Shown: positions 1,722 through 36,973 of the stretch, piece after piece
How positions within the stretch are numbered: position 1 is the first letter of the stretch
How the letters are laid out: the number at the start of each line of letters is the position of its first letter
From: a virus
Virus record (IMG/VR): IMGVR_UViG_3300033978_000232
Span: 1 to 36,973 of that record
Direction: 5' to 3' (one strand)
DNA length: 36,973 nucleotides
Program-made: the position numbers and the translations under genes
The notes under the pieces: generated by a model
The model's database searches: none
Seen by the model: the letters and a program-made list of their open reading frames with translations, nothing else
Told to the model about the DNA's origin: nothing

Positions 1722-3044
1722 ATGGGAACTCCACTCACAGGCAGTAGCGTCGCATCGACATACACTGGCCTACTAAAAAGCTCCGACAACTCCGCGCTGA
1801 CCACGGTCCTCAAAGCCGTTGGAGATGGCAGCGGTATCGATTCCGCGCTCCAGCTATCGACCACCGCAGTCAATACCACTGGCGACTTCAGCGTCGGGTC
1901 CAACAAGCTCACGGTGGCCGCGGCAAGCGGTAACACGGTCGTCGGTGGTACCCTCACCGTAACCGGCGCAACGAGCCTCAGCGGCAATCTGGCGATCCCC
2001 GGCAACCTCTCGGTGACCGGTACATCCACTCTCACTGGTGCCACAAGCGTCGCCAGCACCCTCGCGGTGACCGGAGCCACCTCGCTCTCAAGCCTCTCCA
2101 CCAGCGGAGCGGCTACCATAGGGACCACTCTGGGGGTCACAGGAGCCTCTACGTTGGCCAGCTTGGGTGTTACCGGTGCGGCGACGGTTGGAACGACCCT
2201 AGGCGTCACTGGAGCGACTACGCTGGCAAGCCTAGGGGTGACCGGCGCGGCTACTGTCGGAACCACGTTGGGAGTCACCGGAGCCACCACTCTCGCTTCA
2301 GTCGGTGTCACCGGAGCGGCTACGGTTGGTACTACGCTCGATGTTACCGGTGCTGCAACTCTCTCCAACAACCTGACCGTCACCGGCAACGCTACGGTCA
2401 ACGGCAACACCACGATTGGAAACCTAGGCACCGATCTCCTGACGATCAACGCCAACGAGGTCACGCTTCCGAACCTGACCAATGTCACGGTCGATCTAGC
2501 CAACGATAAGGTTCTGATCACCGATGCGAATGATTCCAGCAAACTTCGCTCCATCGCAGCCAGTGCGCTCGGAATCAATGCGTCGAACGCTCCTCAGTCT
2601 GTTCAGACAGTTGATACCACGAGACAAACTTACTCTGGATCAGCAACCGCTCCAGGGCAAGAGATCACGGTGCTTAACACCACCATAACTCCGAGAAGCA
2701 CATCTTCTAAGATACTGGTAACTGTTTGTATCAATTATTCCTGCCTTGTTAATACATCGCAATTTGTTCTTTTTAGGCTAACAAGGAATTCAACCGAAAT
2801 CGGAACATCTACTGGATTAAACACAAAGGGTATATCCAGTGCTTCTTATGAAGATGGTGAGGTTACTACGATTAGTAACAAGATAATCCAGTTCCTTGAT
2901 AGTCCAAACACCACTTCTCCTGTAACATATCGGATCCATAACTACGGTCCAACAAGCGCACAGCAATTGTACCTTAATTATGCTGTGAACGACAATACGG
3001 TATCGACCTCTTCCACGATGATCTTGCAAGAGTACTTCGCATGA
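1722..3044 (+). CDS. Tail fibre protein 2 with tandem repeats (440 aa)
   Basis: It begins one base after the upstream stop (TGA-T-ATG). Residues about 65-230 are a low-complexity shaft rich in Gly, Thr, Ala and Val, built from alternating units GVTGAATVGTTL and GVTGATTLASL (about 23 residues per pair), as in trimeric beta-structured phage fibres. A junction region NLTNVTVDLANDKVLITDAND follows. The C-terminal 150 residues (NAPQSVQTVDTTRQTYSG onward) form a non-repetitive head that may bind the receptor. Its nucleotide composition is visibly more AT-rich than the shaft, hinting at domain exchange. The stop overlaps the next ATG (ATGA). Confidence 0.85.
   Translation: MGTPLTGSSVASTYTGLLKSSDNSALTTVLKAVGDGSGIDSALQLSTTAVNTTGDFSVGSNKLTVAAASGNTVVGGTLTVTGATSLSGNLAIPGNLSVTGTSTLTGATSVASTLAVTGATSLSSLSTSGAATIGTTLGVTGASTLASLGVTGAATVGTTLGVTGATTLASLGVTGAATVGTTLGVTGATTLASVGVTGAATVGTTLDVTGAATLSNNLTVTGNATVNGNTTIGNLGTDLLTINANEVTLPNLTNVTVDLANDKVLITDANDSSKLRSIAASALGINASNAPQSVQTVDTTRQTYSGSATAPGQEITVLNTTITPRSTSSKILVTVCINYSCLVNTSQFVLFRLTRNSTEIGTSTGLNTKGISSASYEDGEVTTISNKIIQFLDSPNTTSPVTYRIHNYGPTSAQQLYLNYAVNDNTVSTSSTMILQEYFA
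2131..2358 (+). repeat. Degenerate tandem repeats encoding the fibre shaft
   Basis: About three and a half copies of a 69-nt (23-residue) unit. Protein repeats are nearly identical, but the codons differ between copies (for example GVTG is written with several different synonymous combinations), so the DNA repeat is strongly decayed. Related units recur at 1960-2130 and in the other fibre gene near 36575-36620, with a shared 14-mer ACCGGCGCGGCTAC at 2241 and 36580. Confidence 0.85.
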
Positions 3045-3802
3045 AACCCTCTGAAGTAGCCCAAGCGGCTTGCGACAAGCTCTCCTTCACCGACGCGAAC
3101 ACCCTCGCGTTGGCCAAGAAGTTCTGCATCCGCCGCTACTCCATGATCTGGGATTCGTGCCTCTGGAACGATACCCTCGGCGTCATCTCGCGCTCAGTCA
3201 GCCAAGGCAACGAACTGGTCACCCTCGACCAAACCGTAACCGCTACCTACGCCTCAGGTACCGGCTACAACATGTTCCTCGACTTCCCAGTCGCCATCCG
3301 ATTCACGATCAACGGCGAGACCGATGGCATCGAAGTCCCCGCCGCGGAATGGGTCTCGTTCTTCCAGCTCGATCCCAACACTTGGAACAACGTCGATAGC
3401 CGCAAGTCCACCCCCGGCAACTTCGTCAACTGGACCCGAGTCATCGGTGCTTCCTACGGAGAAGCCGGTGTCCCGCGCATCAAGCTCGTTCCCACGCCCA
3501 ACACCGATGGCAACCTCTTTATCCTCGGGAAGAAGCAGTCCCAGATGCGGCAGTTCGGCGAGAACCAAGCGATCGTCAACGACAGCAACTTCGAGCTGCG
3601 CGGTGTCGAGAACGCTCTGATGGCCTACACCGAAGGCGATCTCCTCGAATACTCCCGGCAGTACGGGAAAGCCCAAGCCAAGTTCCAAGAAGGGGCCGCT
3701 CAAGTCTCCATTATGAAGGACATGGAACGCGGTCAGCAGCAGCAGATCAGCCGCATCATTCCAGATAGCTTGTACGATTATACGTTCCAAGACATCCTGT
3801 AA
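3041..3802 (+). CDS. Tail tubular protein A-like / head-tail adaptor (253 aa)
   Basis: The length, the all-helical ends and the beta-rich centre resemble the T7 gp11-type tail tube protein of podoviruses. The N-terminal helices (PSEVAQAACDKLSFTDANTL) and IRRYSMIWDSCLWNDTL are typical, and the C-terminus has a long helix (MAYTEGDLLEYSRQYGKAQAKFQEGAAQVSIMKDMERGQQ) like that of proteins docking on the portal. It is followed 6 bp later by a tail-tube-B-like gene, the same order as in T7-like phages. Assignment is by pattern and synteny; identity is likely low. Confidence 0.75.
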   Translation: MKPSEVAQAACDKLSFTDANTLALAKKFCIRRYSMIWDSCLWNDTLGVISRSVSQGNELVTLDQTVTATYASGTGYNMFLDFPVAIRFTINGETDGIEVPAAEWVSFFQLDPNTWNNVDSRKSTPGNFVNWTRVIGASYGEAGVPRIKLVPTPNTDGNLFILGKKQSQMRQFGENQAIVNDSNFELRGVENALMAYTEGDLLEYSRQYGKAQAKFQEGAAQVSIMKDMERGQQQQISRIIPDSLYDYTFQDIL

Positions 3803-8582: not shown

Positions 8583-9020
8583 ATGGCTTTCGAGAACTTC
8601 CTACAGAACGCCGCCAACTTCGCCACCGGAGGGTTGTACAACGAACTCTCGGGCCGAGACAAAGAACTCGAACGCCAAAAGATGGCCGAGGTCGAGGCAT
8701 TCCGCGCCAACCCGGAGCTGGTACGCGAAGCCGCCAAGTACGATCCCAGCATCATGGAACGGCTCGGGAACCTTCTCACCGGAGGTCTCTACGGCAAAGC
8801 CACCGGCATGGACGACAAGCTCGAACAGCGGGCGTTGGCCATGCAGCAGATCCGTGAGGATGAGCTTCAGAGACGCATGATGGAGCGTATGAAAGGCTAC
8901 GGCATCGCTCCCGTCGAGGAACCGATGGGAAGCGAACTAAACCCCGATCGAAGCGCGGCACCGATGCCCGTCGCACCCGGAACAATTCGCAAGAAGAACA
9001 CTTTCGCTGGAGGCTACTGA
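8583..9020 (+). CDS. Virion-region protein with duplicated TGGL motif (145 aa)
   Basis: A helical protein with an internal duplication: NFATGGLYNELSGRDKELER near residue 12 and NLLTGGLYGKATGMDDKLEQ near residue 62, each followed by charged helix. A similar element (NVLTGGLAGQISGSTQRAQE) is near the N-terminus of the next gene, so these adjacent genes share a building block. The C-terminal tail is unstructured and Pro-rich. A likely capsid-internal or ejection protein; function inferred only from location. Confidence 0.7.
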   Translation: MAFENFLQNAANFATGGLYNELSGRDKELERQKMAEVEAFRANPELVREAAKYDPSIMERLGNLLTGGLYGKATGMDDKLEQRALAMQQIREDELQRRMMERMKGYGIAPVEEPMGSELNPDRSAAPMPVAPGTIRKKNTFAGGY

Positions 9021-13153: not shown

Positions 13154-13327
13154 GTGAGCGTGAAACTCCTGACAATCAAAGAGATCGCAACGGCTCTCGG
13201 GACTCATCCCGAGACCGTTCGTCGCTGGATCCGGGGAGGTAAGCTACCGGCCATGAGGGCTACCAAGCGCACGATCCGTGTCCGCTCCGACGTAATCGAA
13301 GAAATGCTACGGCAACAAAATCCATGA
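13154..13327 (+). CDS. Excisionase/MerR-like helix-turn-helix DNA-binding protein (57 aa)
   Basis: The sequence LLTIKEIATALGTHPETVRRWIRGGKLPAMRATKRTIRV is a classic HTH_17-type winged helix: 'T-x-x-E-x-A-x-x-L-x-x-x-x-x-T-V-R-R-W-I-x-x-G-x-L-P-A'. I place the start at GTG 13154 (a second GTG follows at 13160); the longer TTG start at 13118 would cover the candidate promoter. With no integrase present it is more likely a transcription regulator of the replication operon than an excisionase. Its stop overlaps the RecT-like gene by ATGA. Confidence 0.8.
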   Translation: MSVKLLTIKEIATALGTHPETVRRWIRGGKLPAMRATKRTIRVRSDVIEEMLRQQNP

Positions 13328-14106
13328 ACGCAATCGCAACGACAACGCAACAGCCATCATCCGAGATGTACGACAAGATCTCGGACCCCATCACCGCCAT
13401 CGAGAAGATGGGCGAGTGGATAGCCTCCAGCGGAATGCTGGGATGCACCAAGGTCGAACAGGGTAAACTCATCGCGTGGCAGTGCGCCGCCGAGAAAAAG
13501 ACCCCGTTCGACTTCAAGCGCGAGTACCACATCATCGGTGGTTCTCTCTCCATGCGCTCCGATGCCATGCTCGCCGGATACCGCGCCCGTGGTGGTAAGG
13601 TTCTCTGGAAGCAGTTCGACTCCCGCGCCGCGGTCGCCCTCTGGACCTACGACGGCAACTCCTGCGAGATCTCATTTACCACCGAAGACGCCAAGCTCGC
13701 TGGCCTGCTCCCCGCTAAACCCGGCTCTGGGTGGGCCAAGGATCCTTCCGCAATGCTCCGCGCTCGGTGCATATCCAAAGCGGTTCGCATGCTTGCACCC
13801 GAGGTTGTCGCCGGCATCTACACCCCGGAGGAGACCGAGGACTTCCAGCCTGCTATCGCCGAGGTTGCCGCCGCTCCCACCAAGAGCTTCGACATCACCG
13901 CCAAGCTCGAAGCCCTGTTCGAGGATCGTGAGGAAGAGGTCAACGCCCTGCTCATCAAGGCCGGGCGCATTCAGGATGGCCAGACCTTCCGCGATCTCAC
14001 CGATGCTCATGCCTCCAAGTACATCGCAAAGCCCGACCTGATCCTTGGTAAGCTGGCTGTGATCGTCACCCCTGAGATCGCCACCACGGAGGTGACCAAT
14101 GGTTGA
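13324..14106 (+). CDS. RecT-like single-strand annealing protein (260 aa)
   Basis: The middle of the protein matches phage RecT-type recombinases: 'G-W-x-K-D-P-x-A-M-L-R-A-R-x-I-S-x-A-V-R-M-L-A-P-E-V-V-A-G-I-Y-T-P-E-E' at about residues 136-170, preceded by the YHIIGGSLSMRSDAMLAGYRARGG segment. Such proteins anneal complementary single strands during phage recombination and replication. It is paired with a RecE-like exonuclease 8 bp overlapping downstream, the usual recombination couple. The C-terminal third (about 190-260) is variable. Close sequence family not certain, but the pairing makes the call firm. Confidence 0.8.
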   Translation: MNAIATTTQQPSSEMYDKISDPITAIEKMGEWIASSGMLGCTKVEQGKLIAWQCAAEKKTPFDFKREYHIIGGSLSMRSDAMLAGYRARGGKVLWKQFDSRAAVALWTYDGNSCEISFTTEDAKLAGLLPAKPGSGWAKDPSAMLRARCISKAVRMLAPEVVAGIYTPEETEDFQPAIAEVAAAPTKSFDITAKLEALFEDREEEVNALLIKAGRIQDGQTFRDLTDAHASKYIAKPDLILGKLAVIVTPEIATTEVTNG

Positions 14107-14875
14107 TATCATGCACGACATGCCCGCCGCGGATTACCACGCGGAGAAGGCTCTCTCCAAGTCCGGCCTCGATCAGTTCCGCAAGTCCCCCGCTCACTTC
14201 CGCGCTTGGCAGGATGGCAGGACCAAGAACGAAACCAGCCCCGCGCTGGAGTTCGGTTCCGCCGCTCACTGCGCTGTCCTGGAACCGGAGCGGTTCGTCA
14301 TCACCTACAAGCTCTTCACCGGCGATCGCCGTACCAAGCAGGGCAAGGAGGATTACCAACTGATTATCGACAACGGATTTACTCCGCTCAACCAAGACCA
14401 GTGGGAGAGCATCACCGGTGTCGCTGCCGCGGTTCACGCCCATCCCGCTGCTTCTGGCCTACTGGATGGAATCAAGACCGAGGTCAGCTACTTCGCCGAT
14501 TGGTCCGGCATCGAGGTCAAAGCTCGCATCGATGGTCTCGGCAAGGACTACATCATCGACCTCAAAACCACGCAGGATGCGTCGCCAAGCGCGTTCGCCA
14601 AGTCCTGCGCTCAGTTCCGCTACCACGTTCAAGCCGCTTGGTACCAGCGCATCACCGGCATCAACCGGTTCGTGTTCATCGCCGTCGAGAAGGAGGCTCC
14701 GTTCGGTGTCGCCTGCTACGAGCTTGATCAGTTGGCCATCGATCTTGGAAACTCCATCATCGATGAACAACTCAAGACCTTCATCGAATGCCAGGAACTC
14801 AACTCTTGGCCTTGTTACTCCTCAACCACTCAAACACTCTCGCTGCCCGCGTGGGCGGCTCGTCAGTCCGAATAA
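14099..14875 (+). CDS. RecE-like PDDEXK exonuclease (258 aa)
   Basis: Conserved positions of the phage exonuclease VIII-like (DUF3799) family are visible: GSAAH (His57), Glu128 in KTEVSYF, Asp145 in KARIDG, the D-L-K motif at 154-156 (YIIDLKTT) and a YHVQAAWY helix at 175-182. These residues match the metal-binding core of PDDEXK nucleases. It would resect double-stranded ends to give single strands for the adjacent annealase. A good ribosome site (GGAGGTGA) lies before the ATG, inside the end of the annealase gene. Confidence 0.85.
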   Translation: MVDIMHDMPAADYHAEKALSKSGLDQFRKSPAHFRAWQDGRTKNETSPALEFGSAAHCAVLEPERFVITYKLFTGDRRTKQGKEDYQLIIDNGFTPLNQDQWESITGVAAAVHAHPAASGLLDGIKTEVSYFADWSGIEVKARIDGLGKDYIIDLKTTQDASPSAFAKSCAQFRYHVQAAWYQRITGINRFVFIAVEKEAPFGVACYELDQLAIDLGNSIIDEQLKTFIECQELNSWPCYSSTTQTLSLPAWAARQSE

Positions 14876-14893
14876 CAAACAACACACAACACC

Positions 14894-15313
14894 ATGAAAT
14901 TCACAGTCGATCGTTCACAAGCTGAAGTTAAGCCGTTCGCCAGCCCCGGCGAATACATCGTCACCGTCAACTCCTGCAAGGATGACAACCTCGACAAGAA
15001 CGGGAACCCCGTCTGCACCCTGCGCTACAAGGGCGGCAACGGAGAGGTCATCAGCGACCGCTTCGTTCTCAAGGATACCATGATGTGGCGGCTTCAGGCC
15101 CTCATCAGTGCCACCGAGGCGAACATCAGCGATGGCGATGAGTTCGACTTCAGCATCGGCGGCGCGTTCTTTCGATTCCTTCAGGGGTTCGTTGGACTCC
15201 AGTTGGTGGTCGTCCTCGAAGAGGAGAAGTACACTGACAAGAACGGAGCCGAACAGGTTACACTCCGCGTGAAACGAATGAAGAAGGTTCCGGCTGATGT
15301 CGATGACATCTAA
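14894..15313 (+). CDS. DUF669-like phage protein, likely ssDNA-associated (139 aa)
   Basis: The beta-rich layout (FASPGEYIVTVNSCKD, CTLRYKGGNGEVISDRFVL, LQLVVVLEEEKYTDKNGAEQ, LRVKRMKKVPADVDDI) resembles the DUF669 family, often encoded between exonuclease/annealase and helicase genes of phages. Like SSB proteins it ends in an acidic tail (DVDDI), which suggests binding to replication partners. Its leader (AACAAACAACACACAACACC) is CA-rich with no Shine-Dalgarno site. Function inferred from family and neighbourhood. Confidence 0.7.
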   Translation: MKFTVDRSQAEVKPFASPGEYIVTVNSCKDDNLDKNGNPVCTLRYKGGNGEVISDRFVLKDTMMWRLQALISATEANISDGDEFDFSIGGAFFRFLQGFVGLQLVVVLEEEKYTDKNGAEQVTLRVKRMKKVPADVDDI

Positions 15314-16646: not shown

Positions 16647-16806
16647 ATTCGTTCCCATGAACGGACATATTCCGAATGCCGTAGTTTTCGAGGTATTGGA
16701 AGACCTAAAGACCGGAAAAACCTATCGACAGATTGCGGAAGAATACGCGGTAAGCCTTGGATGGATTTCAAAGGTAAAGCGTGGTCAGATCAGGAGGAAT
16801 CGATGA
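16633..16806 (+). CDS. Small HTH protein (57 aa)
   Basis: Sequence around residues 21-50 (VLEDLKTGKTYRQIAEEYAVSLGWISKVKRGQ) fits a helix-turn-helix similar to resolvase or sigma-like recognition helices. The leader holds CAACAAACC with no clear Shine-Dalgarno. Its stop overlaps the next start by ATGA at 16803. A small DNA-binding regulator is the best guess. It is a real gene by composition and junctions. Confidence 0.7.
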   Translation: MSKSEFVPMNGHIPNAVVFEVLEDLKTGKTYRQIAEEYAVSLGWISKVKRGQIRRNR

Positions 16807-17621
16807 GAATCTTAAATCTAGGCGGTGGCGTTCAATCAACGACACTCTACCTGATGGCTCTCCGTGGTGAAATCGCTCCAATTGATTGCGCCATCTTCGC
16901 AGACCTCGGTGAGGAACCAAAGTCTGTCTACGCACACATGGAATGGCTGAAGAGTTTGGGTGGGCCAACCATCCATGTCGTCTCCGCAGGGTTGCTAGGG
17001 AATGACCTTGTTCATGGTATGAATTCAACTGGTCAACGCCATGCGACAATTCCAGCATTCACCGCTCAAAACGAAGGCGAACCGCTTGGAATCATGCGGA
17101 GGCAATGTACAGCCGAGTACAAAATTAAACCGATTGAACAGTTTATTAGGAGACAACTTCTTGGGTTAGAAAAAGGACAGAGAATCAAGACAACACTGAC
17201 CCAACTTTTCGGAATCAGCCTTGATGAAGCAGGTCGAGCGACTCGGATCAAAGCTAACTCTCCACATTGGTCAGATCCAGAGTTTCCGCTCTGCGACAAG
17301 ATGATGACCCGAGCTGACTGCGTGAAGTGGCTTGAGACGTTCGGAATACCTCACACGGTTCCAAGATCCGCTTGTGTATTTTGCCCTTACAAGTCCGACC
17401 ATGAATGGCTTTTGCTGCGTGAAAGAGACGAGGATGGCTGGAATCGGGCTGTAGAAATTGATGAGGCTTTGAGAAAGGAAGGAACCGTGAGGAACCGTGG
17501 ATGCGATGACAAACTCTACCTCCACAAGTCCTGCCGACCGCTCAAAGAGGTTCACCTGACCGATGGCGAACGCGGCCAGTCAGCATTCAACTTTGAGTGC
17601 GAAGGTGGATGCGCTCTGTGA
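16803..17621 (+). CDS. PP-loop / PAPS-reductase-like family enzyme (272 aa)
   Basis: The N-terminus MRILNLGGGVQSTTL is a PP-loop (SGGxxS-type, with the first S replaced) as in phosphoadenosine phosphosulfate reductase-like proteins common in phages. Other conserved points: RRQCTAEYKIKPI (Cys near residue 101), a Cys-rich region with CVFCPYKSDHEW near residues 194-205, and CDDKLYLHKSC near the end. A strong Shine-Dalgarno (AGGAGG, 16796-16801 region) precedes ATG 16803; the longer start at 16761 lies in the upstream gene. Such enzymes transfer adenylyl or sulfur groups; here perhaps DNA or RNA modification. Substrate unknown. Confidence 0.8.
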   Translation: MRILNLGGGVQSTTLYLMALRGEIAPIDCAIFADLGEEPKSVYAHMEWLKSLGGPTIHVVSAGLLGNDLVHGMNSTGQRHATIPAFTAQNEGEPLGIMRRQCTAEYKIKPIEQFIRRQLLGLEKGQRIKTTLTQLFGISLDEAGRATRIKANSPHWSDPEFPLCDKMMTRADCVKWLETFGIPHTVPRSACVFCPYKSDHEWLLLRERDEDGWNRAVEIDEALRKEGTVRNRGCDDKLYLHKSCRPLKEVHLTDGERGQSAFNFECEGGCAL

Positions 17622-27972: not shown

Positions 27973-28401
27973 ATGACGAAAGGGGAGAAAGGGAAGGGGA
28001 AAGGGAAGGAACCCATAAATCGTCCTTCCGGTTACGTCAAAAAAAATGGGCCGGATCCCAAGTCGGTCGCGGAAGCCGACTGGTCGCGGGTACTTGATGC
28101 TGCTTCTCTCGGGATTCCCTTTGAGCGGCTTTGTCATCTAGCGGGCATGACGGATAAGACATTCACGAAGTACCTCACACGATACCCTGAAAGGAAGGAA
28201 GCGATCGAAGCCGCAAGAACTCGGGGGGAATACGATCTTACTTCAACCGTGAGGTCATGCGGCAACGGCTGGCAAGGAAGCGCATGGTTACTGGAGCGAA
28301 CTCGAGGCTATGTCGCTCGCGCTCAATTGGATCACACTACTAAAGGAAAAGAATTGTCAGTTAGCGGTAGTTTACTAGGGGCATTCGGTGGGGGGAAGTA
28401 A
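27973..28401 (+). CDS. terS: Terminase small subunit (142 aa)
   Basis: Location directly before terL and a helix-turn-helix region (FERLCHLAGMTDKTFTKYLTRYPERKEAIEAARTRGEYDL) fit small terminase subunits, which recognise phage DNA for packaging. N-terminus is Lys/Gly-rich (MTKGEKGKGKGKEP), basic as in DNA binders. Start at 27973 (weak GGGAG upstream) is preferred over the in-frame ATG at 27916 because the latter reaches into the promoter. C-terminus ends in SLLGAFGGGK. Confidence 0.8.
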   Translation: MTKGEKGKGKGKEPINRPSGYVKKNGPDPKSVAEADWSRVLDAASLGIPFERLCHLAGMTDKTFTKYLTRYPERKEAIEAARTRGEYDLTSTVRSCGNGWQGSAWLLERTRGYVARAQLDHTTKGKELSVSGSLLGAFGGGK

Positions 28402-28433
28402 TACAATAAGCCGCTATTGTAGTAGCCGCTATT
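28402..28433 (+). promoter_or_regulatory. Dyad TACAATA-AGCCGC-TATTGTA and half repeat
   Basis: TACAATA (28402-28408) and TATTGTA (28415-28421) flank AGCCGC, forming a perfect 7-bp dyad immediately after the terS stop. The same AGCCGCTATT follows once more at 28424-28433. An operator or a short hairpin. Confidence 0.5.
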
Positions 28434-28477
28434 TACATAGAAGATCCATGGATAGGAGTCCAATGCATAGAACCACG

Positions 28478-28537
28478 GGGTAGGGGGGACCCCCACGAGG
28501 GGGGTGGGGTGATACCTGATACCCCCTCCCCCTACCC
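28478..28537 (+). ncRNA. Predicted three-way-junction element upstream of terL
   Basis: Outer stem GGGTAGGGGG (28478-28487) with CCCCCTACCC (28528-28537), 10 perfect pairs. Inside are two hairpins: CCCCC-acga-GGGGG (28490-28503) and GGGGT-10 nt-ACCCC (28506-28525). It lies 11 bases before the terL start, in the 147-nt gap after terS. May be a structured leader RNA, a packaging signal, or DNA structure; only the pairing is seen. Four G-runs also allow a competing G-quadruplex. Confidence 0.5.
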
Positions 28538-28548
28538 ACATCAATTTT

Positions 28549-30090
28549 ATGGCAGTCAAGCAAATTAAGCGCAAGAAATCCCCTTCACTCGGCATGGGTT
28601 CGCATATCCCTGCTTGGAAGCAGCGGAAGCTATTGGAGGAGGCGCAGCAGCTCTCGAACTTCCCTGAGATGATGCTTGGCCTACGCGATACCTATGCGTG
28701 GCAGAAGGCGGTGCTTGGGGCTCTGAACGAGAAGCACGCGAAGGTGGCTCTCAAAGCGGCGAACGGCTCGGGCAAGACGAGCATGGTGGCGGCATCGGCT
28801 GTCATCTGGCACATGCTCCGCTGGCCGGGGAGCTTGGTGGTATGTACGGCTGGTGTGTACCGGCAAGTGGCGGATGCTCTGTGGCCGCACCTGCGGAAGA
28901 TGATCAATGGACTGGGTGGCGAGGAGAACGGTTTCTCGATCAAGGATGGCGAGATCCGCTATGTATACCCTAGGTTGGTTGATGGCCAACAATTGATCAG
29001 CCGGTGTATCGGGTTCAGCGCGAGCAACCCGGAGAAGGCTGAGGGCTGGCATGTGCAGGGTCCGAGTAACGACCTGATGTACATCGTGGACGAGGCGAAG
29101 GCGGTGCCGGACGGGATATTTCAGTCGATGGAGCGGTGCCAGCCGACGAGGACATTGCTGATGAGCAGCCCTGGGGGCAGCAGCGGGTACTTCTACGATG
29201 TATTCCGCCGGAATGACGGCAAGTGGAAGACCTTTACCGTTACCGCTTTCGACTGCCCGCATATCCGGAAGGAGTGGATCGACGATCAGTTTGCGCGATG
29301 GGGAGAGGGCCACCCGCTGGTCCGCTCGATGATCTACGCGGAGTTCATGGAGGATGATGGGAGCTTGACGGCTGTACGAACCGCCGACTGGCAGAAGCTG
29401 GTCAGTGGCCCACCCAAGGAGGATACCGAGGGGCATCGGCTCACCGCGGGTTGTGATTTCAGCGCAGGCGGCGACGAGAGCGTGATGGTGGTGAGACAAG
29501 GGAACACGGTGAAGGGTCTGATCCGCTGGCGGGACAAGGACACGATGGCGAGTGTGGGGCGGTTCATCAGCGAGTTCCGCAAATGGAAGCTGAAGGCGGA
29601 GGACATCTACGCGGATGTGGGTGGTATGGGGGTGGTGATGTGCGATGCGCTCAGAGCGGAGGGGTGGGATGTGCGGCGGGTGAACTTCGGGGAGCGGGCG
29701 ATACGGGATGATCAGTTCGTGAACAAGGCCGCGGAGATGTGGATTGAGTTCGGGCGGATGGTGGAGGAGGGGCGAGTGAACCTGGGTCCGGTGGGTACGG
29801 ATGAGGTGCTGCTCCAGCAGTTCGTGAGCCGGAAGGTGCGGACGAACGGGAAGGGGAAGCTGACGCTGGAGGGGAAGGATGAATTGCGAGCCCGCGGGGT
29901 GAATAGCCCGGATCGTGCGGATGCGGTGGTACTGGCCTTCTGCGGAGCCGGTGGGAAGCGGATGGACGATTACATGAAGGCTCTTGGCGAGGATGGGAGG
30001 AGCCTGCTGGAGCGGATGGAGGATGAGATGGGGGCGATTGAGGGGGATGGTAAAGGGTCTGCGCTTGCTGGTTGTGAGGTTGGGGGATAG
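28549..30090 (+). CDS. terL: Terminase large subunit (513 aa)
   Basis: ATPase with Walker A ANGSGKTS (71-78) and Walker B YIVDEAK (178-184), followed by a C-terminal RNase H-like nuclease with GCDFSAGGDESV (Asp303), DIYADVGG (Asp356) and NSPDRADAVVLAF near residue 470. It cuts concatemers and drives DNA into proheads with TerS and the portal. No Shine-Dalgarno is seen before the ATG; the preceding structure may matter for expression. Confidence 0.95.
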   Translation: MAVKQIKRKKSPSLGMGSHIPAWKQRKLLEEAQQLSNFPEMMLGLRDTYAWQKAVLGALNEKHAKVALKAANGSGKTSMVAASAVIWHMLRWPGSLVVCTAGVYRQVADALWPHLRKMINGLGGEENGFSIKDGEIRYVYPRLVDGQQLISRCIGFSASNPEKAEGWHVQGPSNDLMYIVDEAKAVPDGIFQSMERCQPTRTLLMSSPGGSSGYFYDVFRRNDGKWKTFTVTAFDCPHIRKEWIDDQFARWGEGHPLVRSMIYAEFMEDDGSLTAVRTADWQKLVSGPPKEDTEGHRLTAGCDFSAGGDESVMVVRQGNTVKGLIRWRDKDTMASVGRFISEFRKWKLKAEDIYADVGGMGVVMCDALRAEGWDVRRVNFGERAIRDDQFVNKAAEMWIEFGRMVEEGRVNLGPVGTDEVLLQQFVSRKVRTNGKGKLTLEGKDELRARGVNSPDRADAVVLAFCGAGGKRMDDYMKALGEDGRSLLERMEDEMGAIEGDGKGSALAGCEVGG

Positions 30091-36393: not shown

Positions 36394-36973
36394 ATGCCAG
36401 ATACGAAAATCACAGCCTTAACGGCGATCGGAGCCAATCCGATCATCCCATCAACCTTCCCCATCCCGATGGTCGATCTTACCGACACATCGATGGCGGC
36501 GAGCGGCACCACGAAGAAGGTGACCGTGAACCAAATCCTGGGAGCCGGCGGCACCGCCACGCTCGCCTCCGCCACCATCACCGGCGCGGCTACGGTGGGG
36601 ACGACTTTCGGCGTGACTGGTGTTTCCACCTTTGCTGCTGGCACCGCTTTGCTTCCCGCTCTGACAACGACTGGAGACACAAACACCGGCATTTACTATC
36701 CAGCGGCAGACACGTTTGCTGTTACGACTGCTGGCGCCGAGCGTTATCGTGTGGACTCAGCGGGAAATTGCGGCATCGGGGTTACGCCGAGTGCGTGGGT
36801 GGCTGGAGCAAAAGCTCTTCAGTTTGGAGCTTATGGTGCGCTTGCGCAAAGCTCTTCAGGAAACATTGAGCTTTCTTTCAATTCATACAACAGCGGGGCG
36901 GGTGCTTACAAATACCTGCAAACTGACACCGCTTCACTCTATCGCGCTTCGTCGGTTCATTCGTGGTTTGTCG
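36394..36973 (+). CDS. Tail fibre protein 1, N-terminal part (continues at 1)
   Basis: ATG at 36394 opens a frame that runs off the window and continues in phase into base 3 after circularisation, giving a 333-aa protein ending at 536. N-terminus MPDTKITALTAIGANPIIPS with the 'P-M-V-D-L-T-D-T-S-M-A-A-S-G-T-T-K-K-V-T-V' block is typical for fibre proteins of tailed phages with an N-terminal anchoring domain; the middle has ATITGAATVGTTFGVTG, the same repeat unit as fibre 2. Likely a second host-binding fibre. Confidence 0.85.
   Translation, partial: MPDTKITALTAIGANPIIPSTFPIPMVDLTDTSMAASGTTKKVTVNQILGAGGTATLASATITGAATVGTTFGVTGVSTFAAGTALLPALTTTGDTNTGIYYPAADTFAVTTAGAERYRVDSAGNCGIGVTPSAWVAGAKALQFGAYGALAQSSSGNIELSFNSYNSGAGAYKYLQTDTASLYRASSVHSWFV
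36860..36973. repeat. Terminal overlap identical to 1..114
   Basis: Second copy of the 114-bp overlap that closes the circle; it is coding sequence of tail fibre 1. Confidence 0.95.

Follow-up and report, generated by a model that had tools for sequence, protein, structure and literature searches.

A conserved non-coding element downstream of terS as a candidate packaging-initiation site in a family of uncultured phages

The window, i.e., the whole stretch of DNA analysed here, is IMG/VR record IMGVR_UViG_3300033978_000232 at its full length of 36,973 nt. Its first and last 114 nt (1-114 and 36860-36973) are identical, and with this exact overlap counted once the record closes into a map of 36,859 bases. 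On the plus strand it carries terS (27973-28401, stop codon at 28399-28401), which encodes a small terminase subunit of 142 aa (PHROG 4102 terminase small subunit, E 8e-6), followed by terL for the large terminase subunit (28549-30090, ATG at 28549; PHROG 2 terminase large subunit, E 2.5e-33) and next by the portal protein gene. PDB sequence searches with TerS and TerL gave no useful match. An alignment-based AlphaFold model of TerS is confident for about residues 31-90, with helices at 34-45, 50-56, 61-70, and 72-95; the top match in a PDB fold search with this model was Sf6 TerS, which was not significant (E 0.29), and the assignment of TerS therefore rests on PHROG 4102 and gene order. The preliminary description of this locus pointed out that terL has no Shine-Dalgarno sequence. 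This is true, but it is no hint of control as it is ordinary for this genome, where a Shine-Dalgarno is lacking upstream of nearly all genes, and the scarcity may be a pointer to the host group. Elsewhere in the window (13324-15310 and 16761-17618) PHROG matches identify a RecT-like annealing protein, an exonuclease VIII-like protein, an SSB and a PAPS reductase-like gene.

The gap between terS and terL is two-layered, with a cassette of 0-85 bases straight after terS and then a constant module running from an ACNAC anchor to a T tract. In the window the cassette lies at 28402-28471 (plus strand) and contains ATCCATGGAT and AATGCATAG motifs as well as a perfect dyad, TACAATA (28402-28408) and TATTGTA (28415-28421), present 3' of the terS stop as was originally observed. 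The cassette is variable and dispensable, as seen from the alternative types in close relatives: phages with nearly identical terL have AATAG/GTATAC-like sequences, AACGTTA repeats, ATGCAT/GCCGCTATT-like sequences, or no cassette at all (3-4 nt). The TACAATA/TATTGTA dyad is part of one of these types and is found in 2 of 86 relatives, and it was rejected as a functional element. No correlation is visible between cassette type and the type of HTH carried by TerS. The fast-changing cassettes carry repeated palindromic words, i.e., TAACGTTA, ATGCAT, GTATAC, GGTACC, and CCACGTGG (window 28402-28471; L007, L009, L017, L067; L486, L535, L536).

The constant module is a terS-linked non-coding element of 77 nt (28472-28548, plus strand), of which 106 alleles were gathered from relatives in IMG/VR; 105 of these were used for spacing, 102 for folding and 24 diverse ones for alignment. 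The preliminary description placed its feature at 28402-28537 and so took in the variable cassette while omitting the conserved T tract. The element is arranged as a ACNACGGG anchor, G/C tracts, an ACCCCC C tract, and the T tract, spanning about 73 bp. The 5' anchor, ACCACGGG in the window (28472-28479, plus strand) and ACNACNGG in its family form, is nearly invariant in the alignment and mostly unpaired in the fold proposed for the region. The core ACCCCCACGAGGGGGGTGGGG (28489-28509, plus strand), which comprises the first inner hairpin of that fold and the 5' arm of the second, is near-identical in L452, L486, L535, and L536, and it has a single match in the window when up to 3 mismatches are allowed, with a chance expectation of none. 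In the C tract ACCCCCTCCCCC (28521-28532, plus strand) several C columns are invariant or at least 90% kept among 24 representatives. The T tract (28545-28548, plus strand) forms the 3' anchor and is found at the same distance in distant clades, although it does not adjoin a start codon there; in L486 it is interrupted.

Spacing within the element is tightly kept. The total from ACNAC to the T tract is 71-75 nt in 105 alleles, and 98 of these fall at 72-74. Of the inner distances, the one between ACNAC and the T behind the second G tract is 31-35, the next, up to the C tract, is 14-16, and the last, up to the T tract, is 22-26. In permutations, compensation between these lengths within the element lacked significance (0.18). 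Position by position the clades agree in the ACNAC anchor, in the ACCCCCACG core and in the order of the tracts. Over its first 62 nt the element has 78% (L452), 81% (L486), 77% (L535), and 74% (L536) identity to the window, and likewise 74-81% in L488, values to which shared base composition contributes. For these pairs of genomes, identity at terL fourfold sites is only 39% (L452), 35% (L486), 42% (L535), and 44% (L536), at 55-75% amino acid identity between the TerL proteins. It is hardly credible that the element is a composition artefact, in which G/C-rich sequence pairs by chance and conservation reflects nothing but a short divergence time, as terL fourfold sites would not then be so much less conserved (35-44%) than the element; the artefact reading does stand for two features of the region, the outer stem and the dyad, which behave as chance. 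On sequence comparison the element is under strong purifying selection, whatever follows it and whichever HTH its TerS carries.

The element is found downstream of terS in every clade that holds both. What varies is the distance to terL, which is 0.1 kb in the window, about 0.4 kb in L536 and 4-5 kb in L452, L486, and L488. A pattern search with the 5' part of the element gave matches in L397, L419, L475, and L452, and in the last of these terS is at 2723-3040, the element at 3248 and the terL start near 8630. In L486 and L488 (TerL about 74% identical) the element again follows terS, with terL about 4 kb off and its start abutting other sequence. In L536 (TerL 54-55%) the element follows terS about 440 bases upstream of the terL match, and in L535 (TerL 58-60%) it is about 500 bases upstream of the terL match on a contig from which terS is missing. 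Blocks of 4-5 kb separate the unit of terS and element from terL in L452 (3300-8630) and L486 (1900-6100).

Judging from these positions the element is tied to terS rather than to the terL start codon. Its retention after terS in phages with terL at a distance of about 0.4 or 4-5 kb means that it must be more than a simple terL leader. Translational control of terL, one of the functions originally suggested, is thereby contradicted as a general function by L452, L486, L488, L535, and L536, the element lying immediately upstream of terL only in the window's own clade. The element also differs in this respect from a structured leader of a late-gene mRNA, which it otherwise resembles in the window clade, where its 3' end directly precedes the terL start codon. 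There is one match per near-complete relative and one copy in the window. The exception is G009, where both overlapping ends carry the element. Contig 3300035703_000218 (L114 and L097) has the end of terS, the element and the start of terL at both ends with two different element alleles, and probably represents strain variants joined across the closed map.

The neighborhood of the element also bears on whether it could control transcription of terS, as a terminator, an attenuator, a Rho-linked C-rich tract, or an operator for a late regulator. Such a role would agree with the 3' part of the element, which is C-rich and G-poor and runs into a T tract, with the frequent occurrence of strong hairpins at the ends of transcription units, and with the arrangement in L486 and L488, where terS is followed by the element and this by another gene, with a TTGACA-like box between them (read by eye). 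In the window clade, however, terL starts right after the element, which leaves no room for a promoter, and a terminator would silence terL. No intrinsic terminator, i.e., a GC stem directly followed by a U tract, was called at the element, the T tract does not adjoin a stem, and a terminator would not call for anchors nearly so strict in sequence. We therefore consider a transcriptional role unlikely, though with a structured RNA it ranks as a main alternative to the reading favored below. More improbable still is a DNA site that serves some other process (for instance, the start of replication, the resolution of concatemers, or recombination) and is near terS by happenstance. It is indeed a rigid, single-copy, non-coding module with palindromic, fast-changing motif arrays alongside, in a phage that encodes a RecT-like annealing protein, an exonuclease VIII-like protein and an SSB, but its place is always by terS and at a distance from the replication genes, also in the phages in which terS and terL are not adjacent.

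The region was originally singled out for a predicted three-way junction. The outer stem is present as described, with arms GGGTAGGGGG (28478-28487) and CCCCCTACCC (28528-28537) forming 10 perfect pairs on the plus strand and ending 11 nt upstream of the terL ATG, and it encloses two inner hairpins (CCCCC at 28490-28494 with GGGGGG at 28499-28504, and GGGGT at 28506-28510 with ACCCC at 28521-28525). The MFE of 28472-28548 (-42.2 kcal/mol) is this very junction. Still, this is barely beyond chance, as 49 of 1000 dinucleotide shuffles of the element were as stable and 214 of 1000 (21%) also gave a three-way junction; over a 181-nt region the folding z was -1.46, with 18 of 200 shuffles as stable. 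Among 102 alleles the MFE was junction-like in 60, the mean folding z was -0.51 with 4 alleles below -2, and the commonest allele (L032, 32 loci) has a best fold without the junction.

Pairing across relatives does not improve the case for a conserved fold. In 24 diverse alleles 75.4% of cells were paired in the proposed structure as against 77.0% in shuffles, with 69.2% for the outer stem, and the covariation score of the whole structure was reached by 498 of 500 shuffles. When outer arms were swapped among alleles, the swapped arms paired as well or better in 5 of 6 groups and in the whole set, and the single stem retained by RNAalifold has 7 bp and a covariation term of 0.05. All of these tests have little power, since many pairing registers are open to runs of G and C. 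The search for covariance among related terS-terL gaps, which had been proposed as a check, found no compensatory change in the outer stem, and the three-way-junction RNA is rejected as a conserved fold for that stem on z, arm swap, covariation, and RNAalifold; conserved pairing of the stem is unsupported. A G-quadruplex formed by the same G runs, suggested as a competing structure, is not conserved either, the motif being found in 59 of 106 alleles on the plus strand and 17 of 106 on the minus strand. Rfam gave no gathering-level match in the window and none at E up to 1 around the element.

It is nevertheless conceivable, if doubtful, that the element works at the level of a structured RNA, be it a small packaging RNA comparable to phi29 pRNA or a folded part of the mRNA downstream of terS that tunes expression or stability. 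The order of G, C, G, and C tracts is kept in all clades, the second inner hairpin retains a G/C stem with a variable loop, and the element is on the same strand as terS throughout; the junction of the window allele and the 60 junction-like alleles point the same way. Against this stand the tests above, which give a folded packaging RNA no covariation support, weak as they are, the low mean z, the junction-free commonest allele and the missing Rfam match, together with the conservation of the ACNAC and T-tract anchors although these are unpaired. The resemblance to phi29 pRNA lies in a possible three-way junction in the vicinity of packaging genes. The element differs from it in having neither covariation nor an Rfam match, and its phage has genes for both TerS and TerL.

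TerS itself consists of a variable N-terminal HTH region and a nearly invariant WQGSAWLLERTRGYVARA... C-terminal part. The HTH regions form four clusters, between which identity reaches at most 32-56%, while the C-terminal part is well conserved. Among phages whose TerL proteins are 92-100% identical the HTH (window 27973-28200; L001, L005, L032, L034, L038, L044) is swapped among at least four clusters. In pairwise comparison the break covers the HTH segment and similarity resumes within terS, at its 3' end and some 200-300 nt ahead of terL, and continues through the element into terL. The recombination genes of the window may drive this mosaicism of terS. One identical 77-nt allele of the element is found with all four HTH clusters, and the site does not co-vary with the HTH as would be expected if the HTH were its specific reader. 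A constant site beside changing HTHs would be surprising only in that case. In distant clades the C-terminal tail also differs (TLTIAHQLL... as against ELSVSGALLGAF...), with the element retained. Words resembling TGTTCCACGTGGAACA are seen beside or within terS in L486 (about 1300 and 1775), L488 (about 5230), and L530, and presumably resemble the ParB-binding parS site. The downstream copy in L486 sits in an inverted repeat (CAGTTAACG/CGTTAACTG).

We give about even credence to the element being a double-stranded DNA site for packaging initiation in this phage family, of the pac kind or, less likely, of the cos kind. This reading is favored because the element is next to terS, single copy, non-coding, strictly conserved, of fixed length, and independent of the gene that follows. 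Among the functions originally proposed, a pac site or packaging-recognition DNA site is thus the candidate that fits the conserved sequence and fixed spacing best. The terminase complex would dock on the element in the replicated concatemer by parts that do not vary with the HTH, i.e., the core or C-terminal part of TerS and/or TerL. TerL would then cut in or near the element, after which packaging would run in one direction. The length of 73 bp, about 7 turns of B-DNA, would keep both anchor contacts on one face of the helix. The swappable HTH might make weak or accessory DNA contacts, or provide a second specificity within the swapped terS segment. Known pac and cos sites are located within terS or adjoin it (PMC9611059). 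A single HTH of SF6 TerS binds weakly and with little sequence specificity, DNA conformation being what is selected (PMC4737164), and the specificity of HK97 TerS comes from N- and C-terminal segments and is exerted beside an A-tract (PMC11331095). In view of these reports of weak reading by the HTH or reading by other segments, a site read by invariant parts of the terminase is therefore favored.

Several points count against a packaging site on DNA. Well-studied pac sites are sequence-tolerant whereas the element is strict, the C-terminal tail of TerS differs in distant clades while the element stays, and a site that functions as DNA only has no obvious need for a conserved order of pairable G and C tracts. 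We regard it as possible, though on the unlikely side, that the HTH in this family is freely exchanged, perhaps because satellites or defence exert pressure, while the packaging signal is read by an invariant part of the terminase, or, more radically, that these phages with TerS and TerL use a packaging RNA whose G/C-tract helices slip in register and so leave no trace of covariation.

Compared with known packaging sites, the putative site has traits of both kinds: its strict sequence and spacing are those of a cos-type site, while its position next to terS and its single occurrence per genome are those of a pac-type site. With pac of the headful phages P22 and SPP1/SF6 it shares the linkage to terS, one place per genome, and a closed, apparently permuted map. 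The pac of P22 is, however, 22 bp inside terS, and that of SPP1/SF6 is flexible, sequence-tolerant DNA (PMC9611059, PMC4737164), whereas the element is non-coding, downstream of terS, about 73 bp long, built of G/C tracts, and strictly conserved. The cos of HK97, a cleavage site with a 15-bp TerS site and an A-tract, and that of PaP3 are like the element in strict sequence and spacing and in the fixed distance of an A/T tract; in HK97, TerS recognizes DNA through segments outside its HTH (PMC11331095). No sequence similarity to these cos sites is claimed, and they differ from the element in that contig ends do not clearly pile up at it and circular maps close at scattered points. Overlapping ends of 25-588 bases were found in 8 of 10 near-complete relatives at scattered map positions, which suits headful packaging, although the same picture would be given by a cos phage whose DNA is circular inside the cell. 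The right-hand ends of complete contigs, counted by eye, showed no clear pile-up near the element. Of the 31 left contig ends within 3 kb of terL, 4 are within 100 bases of it; this excess is weak and could also stem from assembly trouble.

We infer that the element is best filed as a variant of the terminase recognition sites, with a putative function. A search of bacterial genomes with the element pattern gave two matches, both chance-like. In the collection of named phages searched there was no DNA match to the window region or to L536, and identity over the length of TerL did not exceed about 36% in any of them; no cultured relative was found. Closest by TerL are Akkermansia phages (about 36%), which are without such a gap where annotated, terS and terL of Chambord overlapping. 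How TerS discriminates phage from host DNA is still debated (PMC9611059). The present family amounts to a natural experiment on this matter, with a near-frozen, precisely bounded candidate site by a TerS whose HTH is swapped among close relatives, and it permits one to ask directly by which of its parts the terminase recognizes the packaging signal. The element also makes packaging accessible by sequence in a lineage of uncultured phages whose nearest named TerL is about 36% identical. Finally, in L535 and L536 a long purine tract of G runs and A (GGGGAGGGGGAGAAAGG...) lies on the coding strand upstream of terL.
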